Below, one piece after another: positions 54,318-57,757 of a stretch of 64,000 bases of DNA. Numbering within the stretch: position 1 is the first letter of the stretch; each line of letters starts with the position of its first letter. The notes beneath the pieces are model-generated. The model worked only from the letters and a program-made list of their open reading frames with translations. It made no database searches and was not told the origin of the DNA. Source of the DNA: Thermoleophilaceae bacterium (GTDB lineage: Bacteria; Actinomycetota; Thermoleophilia; Solirubrobacterales; Thermoleophilaceae); the NCBI GenBank assembly GCA_030447905.1, contig JAUJNZ010000009.1, positions 1 through 64,000 on the forward strand, read 5' to 3'. The position numbers and the translations under genes are program-made.

Positions 54318-54349
54318 GCGACCGTGGCGACCCAGGTCGCCACGGTCGC
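54318..54349. terminator. Strong bidirectional hairpin terminator
   Basis: A perfect 14-bp inverted repeat (GCGACCGTGGCGAC / GTCGCCACGGTCGC) with a 4-nt loop lies between convergent genes. On the minus strand the stem is followed by TTTT, so it best terminates the repeat-protein gene that ends at 54374; on the plus strand there is no T-run. Confidence 0.85.
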
Positions 54350-54373: not shown

Positions 54374-55030
54374 TTACCGCCGCTCGGTCGCGCCGGTGTT
54401 GTCGCCGGGATCGGTCTCGCCCCGAGTCGACACGCCGGTGTCGGCACGCGGGTCGGTCTTGCCCTGGGTCTCGACGCCCGTGCCCTGCGTCATCTCGGTA
54501 ACGCCGGTGCCGTCGTTGCCGTCGGTCTCGCCGCGGGTCGACACGCCGGTGTTCTGAGCGTTCGGGCCGAAGTCGGTGTTGCCCTGGGTCTCGACGCCCG
54601 TGCCCTGCGTCATCTCGGTAACGCCGGTGCCGTCGTTGCCGTCGGTCTCGCCGCGGGTCGACACGCCGGTGTTCTGAGCGTTCGGGCCGAAGTCGGTGTT
54701 GCCCTGGGTCTCGACGCCCGTGCCCAGGTTGCTGTCAGTGCCGTCGTCCTGGCGCGTGCCGTCATCGCCGTCGTCATCGTCCCGGTCGTCGTCGCTGCCC
54801 TCGCCGGACTTTGACAGGACGGCCTTGGGCGGCTCCTGGCCCTCGGCGGTGACCGTCCAGCCGAGCGGAGCGGCGCACAGCACGATCGTGGCCAGGAGCA
54901 ACATGCCGGCGCGGCGGGTCAGTGACCGCTGGTCGGGAGCCGGCTCGACCCCGTCGGCCGAGAGCTCCAGGAACATGGTCGGTGCGGTGGCTATAGGCCT
55001 GGCGCCCGGTCGTTGTGGCCTTGCCTTCAC
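54374..55030 (-). CDS. Exported protein with 40-residue tandem repeats
   Basis: From GTG 55030, with GGGGAGG 8 nt upstream, the protein has 218 residues. An N-terminal cytoplasmic part leads to one hydrophobic segment (AGMLLLATIVLCAAPLGWTV), then an acidic linker (EGSDDDRDDDDGDDG) and Thr/Gly/Asn-rich repeats (GTGVETQGNTDFGPNAQN, TGVSTRGETDGNDGTGV). The repeat unit is 40 residues, two exact copies plus partial ones. It is likely a surface stalk or adhesive. It is next to the sigma-factor gene and in the same direction. Confidence 0.75.
   Translation of the reverse strand: MKARPQRPGARPIATAPTMFLELSADGVEPAPDQRSLTRRAGMLLLATIVLCAAPLGWTVTAEGQEPPKAVLSKSGEGSDDDRDDDDGDDGTRQDDGTDSNLGTGVETQGNTDFGPNAQNTGVSTRGETDGNDGTGVTEMTQGTGVETQGNTDFGPNAQNTGVSTRGETDGNDGTGVTEMTQGTGVETQGKTDPRADTGVSTRGETDPGDNTGATERR
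54459..54725. repeat. 120-bp exact tandem repeat inside the exported protein gene
   Basis: Period 120 bp; 54459-54605 is identical to 54579-54725. About 2.2 copies. The absence of even silent changes points to recent expansion or ongoing homogenisation, and copy number may vary between strains. Confidence 0.9.
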
Positions 55031-55129
55031 TTGAACTACCTCCCCGGTTGTGGACGGTGTCAATCGACAACGGGGTGCGGTTGGTGAAGTGAGGTCGTAG
55101 GTGTAGGACGAGTGTCTTAGGTCCTCTGC

Positions 55130-56539
55130 TCAGTCCTCGTCGCCGTCGTCGTCATCCCCACCGCCGCGCTCGGAGTGCTCCTCTGTGGACCCGGAGCGGT
55201 CCTGGGGCGGAGACTCGTACTGCTCCTTGTCGACCTCACGCTCGTGGTCCGCCTCTTCAGAGCCCGAGCGATTCTCGCGGGGGGACCCGTAGTGCTCGCC
55301 GTCGGGCTCGCGATAGGCGCGCGAGTCCTCGCGCTCGTAGCGTTCGTCCGAGCCGGACCCGGAGCCAGGCGAGCTGTCCGAGCGCGCCTCGCGGGCGCGA
55401 GCTTCACGAGCCTCGCCGCGTTCCTCGCGCATTCGCTGCCCCCGCTCACGCGAGCGCTCACGGCGCTGAGCACTAACCCGCGCGCGGTCGCGGCGTGCGT
55501 CGGCACGGCGGGCGGCACTCTGCGTGGACGCGCGCGCCTTATTCGAACCGCCCCGGCGGCCGGTCTCAGCGGCCTCGGCCTCCGCCTTACGCCCGTCGGG
55601 CGCCAGCGGTCCGTTCGGGCCGCCGAGGCCGAGTGCTCCGGCACCCGCGACGACCGTCACGACCCCCGCGGCCAGCGATTTCCCCACCGCCGAACTGGCG
55701 CTTCCACCGCCGAGCAGTCCGGCCAGCAGCCCTCCTCCGGACCCGCCTCCCCCACCGACGAGTCCCTGGAGGACGGCGGCCGCGGTGGCGGCGGCAAGCG
55801 CCGGCGAGATGGCGGCCAGATCGGACTGGCGACCGCCGATCGCGGCCTTGAAGTCACGGCAGGGCGCGCATGCGCGCAGGTGCGCGCGGGGACCGCGACC
55901 GCGAAGCGCCCGGCGGTCGCCGTCCGAGACGATGCGGCAGACCGTCTCGCAGTGCATGTCGCGGCCGTTGCCGAAGTCAACGAGCGCCCGTCGGGCCTCG
56001 AGGACGGACTGCTTGGCCGCGTCGATCGAAACCGAGAATGCGGCGGCGACCTCGTCGTAGCCGAGCCCGCTCAGCTCGCGCATCACCAGCGCGCCACGCT
56101 GGCGCTCGGGGAGCTCGTGGATGTCATCGACGAGCTGGCGCAGCCGCGCGCGGCCTTCGGCGTCGTGCTCCACGCCGCCGTGGATCCCGGCGGTCTCGGC
56201 GTCAAGCTCGTCGACCGGGGGGCGCCGGCGCAGCAGCGAGATCGACTCGTTGTGAGCGATGCGGTAGAGCCACGGCTTCAAGGCGAGCTCCGCTTCGCGC
56301 CGCTCCATGCCGCGCATGGCGTTGAGCATGGTGCTCTGGAGCGCATCGAGCGCATCGTCGGGATGGCGTACGAGCGAGCGGCAGTAGCGGTAGAGCGGCT
56401 GGTGATAGCGCTCATAGATCGCTGCGAAGGCGTCGCGGTCTCCGGTGGCGGCGAGCCGGGCGAGTCGCGCGTCGGTCAACAGGCACAGCGCTACCGTTCG
56501 CGTGCGGTTGATCGGCGGGGAAGCGGACAGCTCGGGCAT
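55130..56539 (-). CDS. ECF sigma factor fused to zinc-finger, membrane and disordered domains
   Basis: A 469-residue protein. Sigma region 2 is at about 35-100 (DRDAFAAIYERYHQPLYRYC, DALQSTMLNAMRGM) and region 4 at 130-185 (LPERQRGALVMRELSG, GYDEVAAAFSVSIDAAKQSV). Then come MHCETVC (196-201) and HLRACAPC (220-227), an anti-sigma-like zinc site. A Gly/Ala-rich stretch and a probable membrane span (SLAAGVVTVVAGAGALGL, 288-305) follow, then 160 disordered charged residues ending GGGDDDDGDED. The usual separate anti-sigma seems fused in cis. The region upstream (56580-56610) is AT-rich and could hold the promoter. Confidence 0.88.
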   Translation of the reverse strand: MPELSASPPINRTRTVALCLLTDARLARLAATGDRDAFAAIYERYHQPLYRYCRSLVRHPDDALDALQSTMLNAMRGMERREAELALKPWLYRIAHNESISLLRRRPPVDELDAETAGIHGGVEHDAEGRARLRQLVDDIHELPERQRGALVMRELSGLGYDEVAAAFSVSIDAAKQSVLEARRALVDFGNGRDMHCETVCRIVSDGDRRALRGRGPRAHLRACAPCRDFKAAIGGRQSDLAAISPALAAATAAAVLQGLVGGGGGSGGGLLAGLLGGGSASSAVGKSLAAGVVTVVAGAGALGLGGPNGPLAPDGRKAEAEAAETGRRGGSNKARASTQSAARRADARRDRARVSAQRRERSRERGQRMREERGEAREARAREARSDSSPGSGSGSDERYEREDSRAYREPDGEHYGSPRENRSGSEEADHEREVDKEQYESPPQDRSGSTEEHSERGGGDDDDGDED

Positions 56540-56659
56540 GGCTAGGTGAACGCGAGCCGGCGGAGGGTGTGAGGCGCTAGTTCAGCAATTTTCTCACTCT
56601 GGTTACCAAGCGAGCGCACGCCGAGCACGGAGGTGCCGCACACCGGTCCGGCCATCGTG

Positions 56660-57757
56660 CTAGCCGCTCAACCGCAGGCGGGTGTTCTTCCGCGCGAGCG
56701 CGAGCCGGCGAGGTAGCGCGGCGACGAGCGGCTCGAGCTCAAGCACGACCTCGGCCGCACTCGGCCGCTCGTGCGGCGGCTTCGCGAGCATCCGCATGAC
56801 GAGACCGTTGAGCGTATCGGGCACCCCGGCGGGCAGCGGCCGCGGCTCCTCGACGAGCTGGGGGAAGCGAACTAGCCGATCCTCGCTGTCGCGCGCCTCG
56901 CGTGCGCGGGGAAACGGAACCGATCCGGAGATCGAGTGGTAGAGCGTCGCGCCGAGGCCGAAGACGTCGGAGGCCGGTCCCACCATGCCGGGGTGGTCCG
57001 ACCCGTCGCATTGCTCGGGCGGCATGTAGGCATCGGTGCCGATCGACCCGCGCAGGCGAGCCGCGCGCTCGAGCGTTCGCGCGATGCTCAGGTCGATCAG
57101 TCGCGGCGGCACACTCATCACCAGGTTGTCCGGTTTGACGTCGAGGTGGACCATCTCCTCGGCGGCCATGTAGTGCAGCGCCGCGGCGATGTGGGCAGTC
57201 AAGGGCAGGAGCTGCTCGAGCGGGAGCGCACCGTGGCGGCGGATGAGCCTGCGCAGGGTCGGTCCCTCGAGGTGCTCGATGAGCACGTGCGGTCGCGGGC
57301 CCCCGAGCACGGCGCCGAATCCCCGCACGATCACGGGGTGAGCGAGCCGCTCGAGTGCCTCCGCCTCCTCGCGCAGCTCACGCAGCACGAGCTCGTTCTC
57401 CACGAGGTCCGGCCGCACCAGCTTCGCCACCGCGAGCGCGAAGAGATGGTCGTCCCAGACGAGGTAGACCTCGTAGCGGCTGCCGCCGCCGAGCGAGCGC
57501 ACCACCGAGCGTCCGTCGGCGATCTCCTCGCCGGCCTCGAATCCCCACGCCGCCCGCGAGTCGTCGCTCCCGCCCGCGACGGCCGGGTCGCGCTCGGGCC
57601 CGGGGGTCGCCATCGGCTGCTCGCCCGGCGGGCCCTCGGCGCCCCTGTCGAGCGGCTCGTCGCCGTCCGCCGGGTCGCGGAGCTCGTCGTTCGCTTCGGG
57701 CGCGCGGGCCCTTGCGGCCAGGGGGCGCAATGCGCGGCGAAACCGGGAGTCGGCCAC
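56660..57757 (-). CDS. Serine/threonine protein kinase with variant DFG motif
   Basis: A 365-residue Hanks-type kinase. After an 85-residue charged N-terminus the domain has LGGGSRYEVYLVW (Gly-loop), FALAVAKLVRP (Lys), VHLDVKPDNLVM (catalytic loop), RLIDLSIART in place of DFG, YMPPEQ (APE-like) and DVFGLGATLYHSI. DLS instead of DFG keeps the metal-binding Asp. No transmembrane or PASTA domain; cytosolic. It starts (GTG) 13 nt after the glutaredoxin gene, so probably co-expressed with bolA and grx. C-terminal 20 residues are basic. Confidence 0.87.
   Translation of the reverse strand: MADSRFRRALRPLAARARAPEANDELRDPADGDEPLDRGAEGPPGEQPMATPGPERDPAVAGGSDDSRAAWGFEAGEEIADGRSVVRSLGGGSRYEVYLVWDDHLFALAVAKLVRPDLVENELVLRELREEAEALERLAHPVIVRGFGAVLGGPRPHVLIEHLEGPTLRRLIRRHGALPLEQLLPLTAHIAAALHYMAAEEMVHLDVKPDNLVMSVPPRLIDLSIARTLERAARLRGSIGTDAYMPPEQCDGSDHPGMVGPASDVFGLGATLYHSISGSVPFPRAREARDSEDRLVRFPQLVEEPRPLPAGVPDTLNGLVMRMLAKPPHERPSAAEVVLELEPLVAALPRRLALARKNTRLRLSG

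Follow-up and report, generated by a model that had tools for sequence, protein, structure and literature searches.

The protein encoded at 55130..56539 of the window (the whole 64,000-nucleotide stretch of Thermoleophilaceae DNA analysed here) is predicted to join an extracytoplasmic-function (ECF) sigma factor and a zinc anti-sigma-like module in one chain, and its target is very probably the exported repeat protein encoded next to it, as judged from a promoter-like motif that the two genes share. The source genome is a 2.58-Mb, 95%-complete assembly in 25 contigs. The interval singled out by the sequence-only reading, 54374-56539, turned out to span two genes, the sigma fusion and the repeat protein. 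They stand in the order kinase, sigma fusion, repeat protein, followed by a strong terminator-like hairpin, and no such hairpin was reported between the sigma and repeat genes. The features are collected in Table 1.

Table 1. Coordinates in the window of the sigma fusion gene, its predicted domains and the neighbouring features
Feature	Position	Strand	Basis
Hairpin resembling an intrinsic terminator, 14 base pairs and a T run, downstream of the repeat gene	54318..54349	(-)	Hairpin search
Exported repeat-protein gene, 218 aa, GTG start, GGGGAGG upstream	54374..55030	(-)	Start from sequence and sister species
Repeat array, 120-bp period, 2.3 copies, 99% match	54452..54725	(-)	Repeat analysis
Signal/anchor segment of the repeat protein (AGMLLLATIVLCAAPLGWTV)	54851..54910	(-)	Sequence
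Promoter-like motif CCTCAC-N16-CGTTGTCGAT ahead of the repeat gene	55063..55094	(-)	Top PWM site
ECF sigma fusion gene, 469 aa, ATG start	55130..56539	(-)	Uninterrupted ORF; homologs order-wide
Charged low-complexity tail, residues 317-469, about 150 residues	55133..55591	(-)	Sequence composition
Weakly hydrophobic span, residues 288-307, possible membrane helix	55619..55678	(-)	KD19 max 1.79
Zinc anti-sigma-like module, residues 195-262, plus long helix 225-261	55754..55957	(-)	Conserved ligands, confident helices
Sigma-70 region 4, residues 140-186	55982..56122	(-)	Pfam PF08281 (Sigma70_r4_2), E 2.4e-8
Sigma-70 region 2, residues 41-106	56222..56419	(-)	Pfam PF04542, E 3.4e-14
Promoter-like motif CCTCAC-N16-CGTT, 34 nt before the sigma ATG	56549..56574	(-)	Exact match
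Ser/Thr protein kinase gene, directly upstream, possible partner	56660..57757	(-)	Pfam PF00069, E 6e-33

The sequence-only reading had placed sigma-2, sigma-4, a zinc motif and a long tail in a single protein, and this arrangement was borne out by one uninterrupted frame of 469 residues and by its Pfam domains. According to Pfam, NCBIfam and the ECF fold match, the protein possesses sigma-2 and sigma-4 and lacks sigma-3, which is the composition of an ECF sigma factor. In the PDB, the sequences that it matches best are those of E. coli sigma-E and relatives, and residues 18-195 of the AlphaFold2 model match ECF sigma structures, the sigma-2 region superposing on sigma-E region 2 (VIA Z 14.1, rmsd 2.6, 93 residues) and the sigma-4 region on sigma-E region 4 (Z 9.7, rmsd 2.0, 69 residues).

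Directly after sigma-4 come the putative zinc ligands, C197-x22-H220-x3-C224-x2-C227, a fuller set than the HLRACAPC motif first described. In an alignment of 45 sequences H220, C224 and C227 are invariant and C197 is kept in 43, and in a second alignment (n=35) all four are invariant; conserved ligands of this Cys...H-x3-C-x2-C type characterise zinc-binding class I anti-sigma domains. The H-x3-C-x2-C motif with an upstream Cys is likewise found in RsrA, ChrR, RsiW and RslA, which are separate proteins, unlike the module considered here. The zf-HC2 family (PF13490) matches 59 of 79 fusion members, and the window protein by itself is not matched. AlphaFold2 predicts the module with confident helices. 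Its assignment to this family is nevertheless supported by sequence and spacing rather than by fold, because a profile of the module found the zinc anti-sigma factor RslA in the PDB weakly (E 0.06, behind a protein disulfide isomerase at 0.054) and Foldseek with the predicted module by itself gave 0 PDB matches.

The architecture is widespread among the relatives, in which a search for the same fusion had been suggested at the outset: within the same family 14 of 31 genomes carry the fusion (E <= 1e-35), within the same order 67 of 151 (E cut-off 1e-45) and within the same class 69 of 299 (E cut-off 1e-40), mostly as open frames of about 450-650 residues, single-contig genomes included. A broader scan of genome contigs with the full-length protein yielded only ordinary ECF sigma factors from unrelated bacteria. 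The source genome (G000) itself holds at least three further fusion paralogs (L080-L082, at C6:80470, C21:164739 and C1:150511). The paralog on C1 has, after its zinc module, a frame unlike that of its relative L023 in genome G001, and may be frame-shifted, either in the assembly or in reality.

This conservation bears on the suspicion, raised together with the original description, that a frame error had joined two genes. Compared with the sister species (G003), substitutions at the three codon positions number 29/19/60 in residues 1-235 of the fusion, 11/11/36 in the linker and span and 42/56/63 in the tail, and the tail indels, of 6, 6, 21 and 30 bases plus single-base gaps, are mostly in-frame. 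The single-base gaps in the sister-species copy do indicate that such assemblies may contain errors; the same architecture, however, stays open in dozens of genomes, some of them single-contig. A frame error is ruled out by the conservation of the fusion across family, order and class, by the third-position-biased substitutions in the sigma part and span and by the mostly in-frame tail indels, and the thought that a frame or assembly error created the chain deserves next to no credit. On the same comparison the tail is best described as coding, weakly constrained and fast-evolving. It is disordered and rich in Arg, Glu and Ser, and the tails of the relatives average 15% Pro. A motif shared by some of these tails, LPxxAxxxG, was considered and set aside, being absent from the window tail.

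The search for a shared promoter motif, which had also been called for, succeeded at both genes and ahead of fusions in relatives. Exact CCTCAC-N16-CGTT occurs twice in the window (56549-56574 and 55069-55094; 0.11 expected), and these two copies, both at the sigma/repeat gene pair, are the only ones in the 2.58-Mb genome. The looser form CTnAC-N16/N17-CGTT lies upstream of the fusion gene in 15 of 37 relatives (about 0.1 expected per spacing), and CTnAC-N16-CGTT lies upstream of the same-strand next gene in 8 of 27 (expectation per spacing about 0.1 or lower). Among the 40 loci of a second set, 9 have the N16 form upstream of the fusion, as against 1 of 40 on the opposite strand and 0 of 40 inside the gene, and downstream of the fusion it occurs in 5 of 35, as against 1 of 35 and 0 of 34 in the controls. 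Many relatives lack the motif ahead of the fusion gene, and a weaker excess also appears on the opposite strand upstream, perhaps owing to divergent genes. The sister species keeps boxes at both places, the one upstream of its sigma gene reading CCTAAC-N16-CGTT within a surrounding region that is 43% identical.

From these sites we infer that the sigma fusion recognises CCTnAC-N16-CGTT. The repeat protein is well supported as its target because a position weight matrix (PWM) built from nine sites upstream of fusions in other species, with the window sites excluded, ranks the repeat-gene site (55063-55094) first in the window, at 27.1 bits; the next site scores 11.9, and among 40 shuffled windows the highest score is 17.6. 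The earlier suggestion that the neighbouring repeat protein is a likely target is thus upheld by the shared motif, the matrix and the sister-species conservation. The regulon is probably very small, because the exact motif occurs nowhere else in the genome. A wider regulon in the same genome was considered and rejected: three further sites, CCTGAC-N16-CGTT, are at chance level (5 in total against 5 in the reversed control). One CCTGAC-N16-CGTT site, at L131 (C22:23553), lies 34 nt ahead of the start codon of a gene for a FliA/WhiG-like sigma factor and overlaps the end of the preceding gene; it could be there by chance.

Promoter specificities may overlap between related ECF sigma factors, and the genome contains at least three fusion paralogs, so that the motif might instead be the promoter of another ECF sigma factor, which would co-regulate the two genes in place of the window protein. 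We hold this to be quite improbable: the exact motif is confined to one gene pair in the genome, none was found ahead of the three paralogs, and in the relatives the motif precedes the fusion genes themselves.

The presumed target has a short N-terminus, a single hydrophobic segment and acidic repeats of the Thr/Gly type. Two near-identical 120-bp units in its gene suggest recent duplication or homogenisation. In 14 of 27 loci across the order, the gene that follows the fusion on the same strand codes for a protein with a signal peptide, compared with 41 of 356 background genes (Fisher p 1.6e-6, with a crude gene caller and signal rule), and N-termini suggest that several of the negatives (L060, L063, L065, L075, L076, L079) are exported as well. 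What appears to be constant downstream of the fusion is an exported protein and not one protein family, because the exported next-gene proteins belong to different sequence types; Pfam found no convincing family among the other exported next-gene proteins. The repeat protein was also considered as a family-wide partner of the sigma, and this was rejected: in genera other than that of the window, its clear homologs come after a kinase, the sigma gene being absent. One weak homolog in genome G012 lies downstream of a sigma-like acidic tail. Four loci (L073, L078, L079, L096) encode, right after the fusion, small exported proteins with two HVxGxxGTxFSxCV-type motifs each, and the two of these tested gave no convincing Pfam family.

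Whether the chain is tethered to the membrane, as the sequence-only reading had it, depends on the span between zinc module and tail. A hydrophobic stretch is indeed present at about residues 288-307, and a comparable 19-residue span with a KD mean of at least 1.6 is found in 33 of 37 sequences (the sigma part reaches at most about 1.2), usually some 60 residues past the zinc motif. In the window protein, however, the stretch is only weakly hydrophobic. It is composed of Ala, Gly and Val, and its biological-scale sum is positive (+2.6, against +1.2 to +5.8 in the family and 9.1 in one fragment). At the span the AlphaFold2 model has pLDDT < 50 and no helix. Flanking K/R counts are equal in the family (2.05 vs 2.0), so that charge does not fix the orientation; the window protein has 4 K/R within the 25 residues past the span. 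M50 site-2 protease genes are present in the genome, as they are in all 14 control genomes. Taken together, the comparable span in the relatives speaks for a tether, and the marginal hydrophobicity, the missing helix and the lack of charge asymmetry speak against it, and we regard a membrane tether as plausible, with odds somewhat better than even.

The same doubts about the span are what would be expected of a soluble sigma factor with the same self-inhibition and regulon, in which the span would serve as an Ala/Gly linker, the tail would be cytosolic and activity would be controlled by loss of zinc, oxidation of thiols or a partner that binds the tail; redox-linked behaviour is, moreover, common among cytosolic zinc anti-sigma factors (PMC7406223). 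Against such a soluble protein stand the recurrence of the span at a similar distance from the zinc motif in most relatives, its retention under third-position-biased substitution in the sister species and the fact that the adjoining likely target is an exported protein. We consider a soluble, zinc- or thiol-switched sigma possible, yet on the whole unlikely.

A different switch is suggested by the kinase gene, whose product looks soluble and which lies directly upstream of the fusion, on the same strand, in both the window and the sister species. PknT turns on EcfP by phosphorylation, and here the kinase might similarly activate the fusion by phosphorylating its sigma part or its zinc module. 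SCO4117, a fused sigma of Streptomyces coelicolor, is reported to be phosphorylated (PMC5826349). In genomes G010 and G011, and at two places in G025, kinase homologs also directly precede repeat-protein homologs, no sigma gene intervening, and the kinase link may for that matter belong to the repeat protein and not to the sigma. In two of these kinase/repeat loci (L122 and L125 among L122-L125) an ECF-like GGAAC-N16-CGTT or GTGAC-N16-CGTT stands before the repeat gene. The kinase cannot be a general switch, because no homolog of it was found beside the fusion in relatives outside the window genus, unlike the ECF43 group (EcfP), in which an adjacent Ser/Thr kinase is conserved. Activation by phosphorylation therefore seems to us rather improbable.

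We lean, with some reserve, towards reading the window protein as an ECF sigma factor that inhibits itself. At rest, its zinc module would be folded back on sigma-2 and sigma-4 and keep the sigma off RNA polymerase, while the span would most likely act as a membrane anchor that leaves the tail outside. An envelope signal would then bring about cleavage or a change of conformation, releasing the sigma part, and the freed sigma would amplify its own expression and activate the gene of the exported repeat protein, its main output. Release by proteolysis would follow the precedents of ECF52 and IutY.

These precedents place the protein among systems already described in part. The statement that a zinc anti-sigma is normally separate holds true, though fused groups (ECF48, ECF52, ECF53) are already on record in Actinobacteria (PMC8999054, PMC5826349); they are sigma-zinc-TM fusions for which proteolytic activation is expected, and ECF48 and ECF53 possess a C-terminal zinc module plus one or two TM helices, with listed models from Mycolicibacterium and Streptomyces (PMC8999054). 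The window protein resembles the latter two in having its zinc module and possible TM segment fused C-terminally, a likeness of domain architecture. IutY of Pseudomonas putida (ECF243) is the only fused sigma with experimentally characterised proteolytic activation; it serves siderophore cell-surface signalling, is activated via Prc and RseP, and yields an active sigma upon truncation (PMC8999054). It shares with the window protein the union of a sigma and an anti-sigma-like part in one chain, the membrane location being tentative in our case, but no receptor of a siderophore system was seen here.

Closest in overall layout is SCO4117 (ECF52), with an ECF sigma, a zinc module, a TM segment (possible in the window protein) and a long C-terminal extension in one chain. 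SCO4117 has a carbohydrate-binding domain, apparent autoregulation and pleiotropic effects; truncated to lack the extension it activates its own expression, and release from the membrane has been proposed (PMC5826349). The window protein differs in several respects: it lacks a carbohydrate-binding domain (no Pfam match at E up to 1), its tail is not proline-rich like the C-terminal extension of ECF52, its TM segment is marginal, its motif is CCTnAC-N16-CGTT as against the CSGYN-17-SRHA reported for ECF52/SCO4117 (PMC5826349), and its regulon appears to be tiny, with an exported repeat protein, as against the pleiotropic SCO4117. No paper on this lineage's version of the fusion was found in our literature search, the main ECF classification (Casas-Pastor 2021) lying outside that search, and this version and its target look, provisionally, undescribed.

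Near the fusion in ten loci of relatives, c-di-GMP-I or c-di-GMP-I-GGC riboswitches were observed. In eight of them (L063, L065, L068, L069, L070, L086, L091 and L094) the riboswitch lies in the leader of the gene immediately downstream, the one for the exported protein, and in L137 and L144 it is also downstream of the fusion; L069 carries a second one elsewhere in its locus, as L061 carries one. None is present in the window. Exported proteins in these lineages may be under the double control of an ECF sigma and c-di-GMP. A bolder picture, which we offer as a long shot, is that of a one-gene envelope sensor, in which the outside tail would sense and the repeat protein, nearly the sole output of the sigma, would feed back on the tail, so that the two genes would form a closed homeostatic loop; this chassis would, in related lineages, drive other exported proteins, some also gated by c-di-GMP riboswitches.

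Fused sigma/anti-sigma proteins have been known mainly from domain lists, and genetic work on the actinobacterial groups has concerned one ECF52 member, SCO4117. In the present case such fusions run through a whole lineage, frequently several to a genome; their promoter motif is readable, and their tendency to precede an exported-protein gene is conserved. The concrete and apparently small regulon of the window protein, two promoters and one protein, offers a place to ask how a sigma factor that is inseparable from its inhibitor would switch on.
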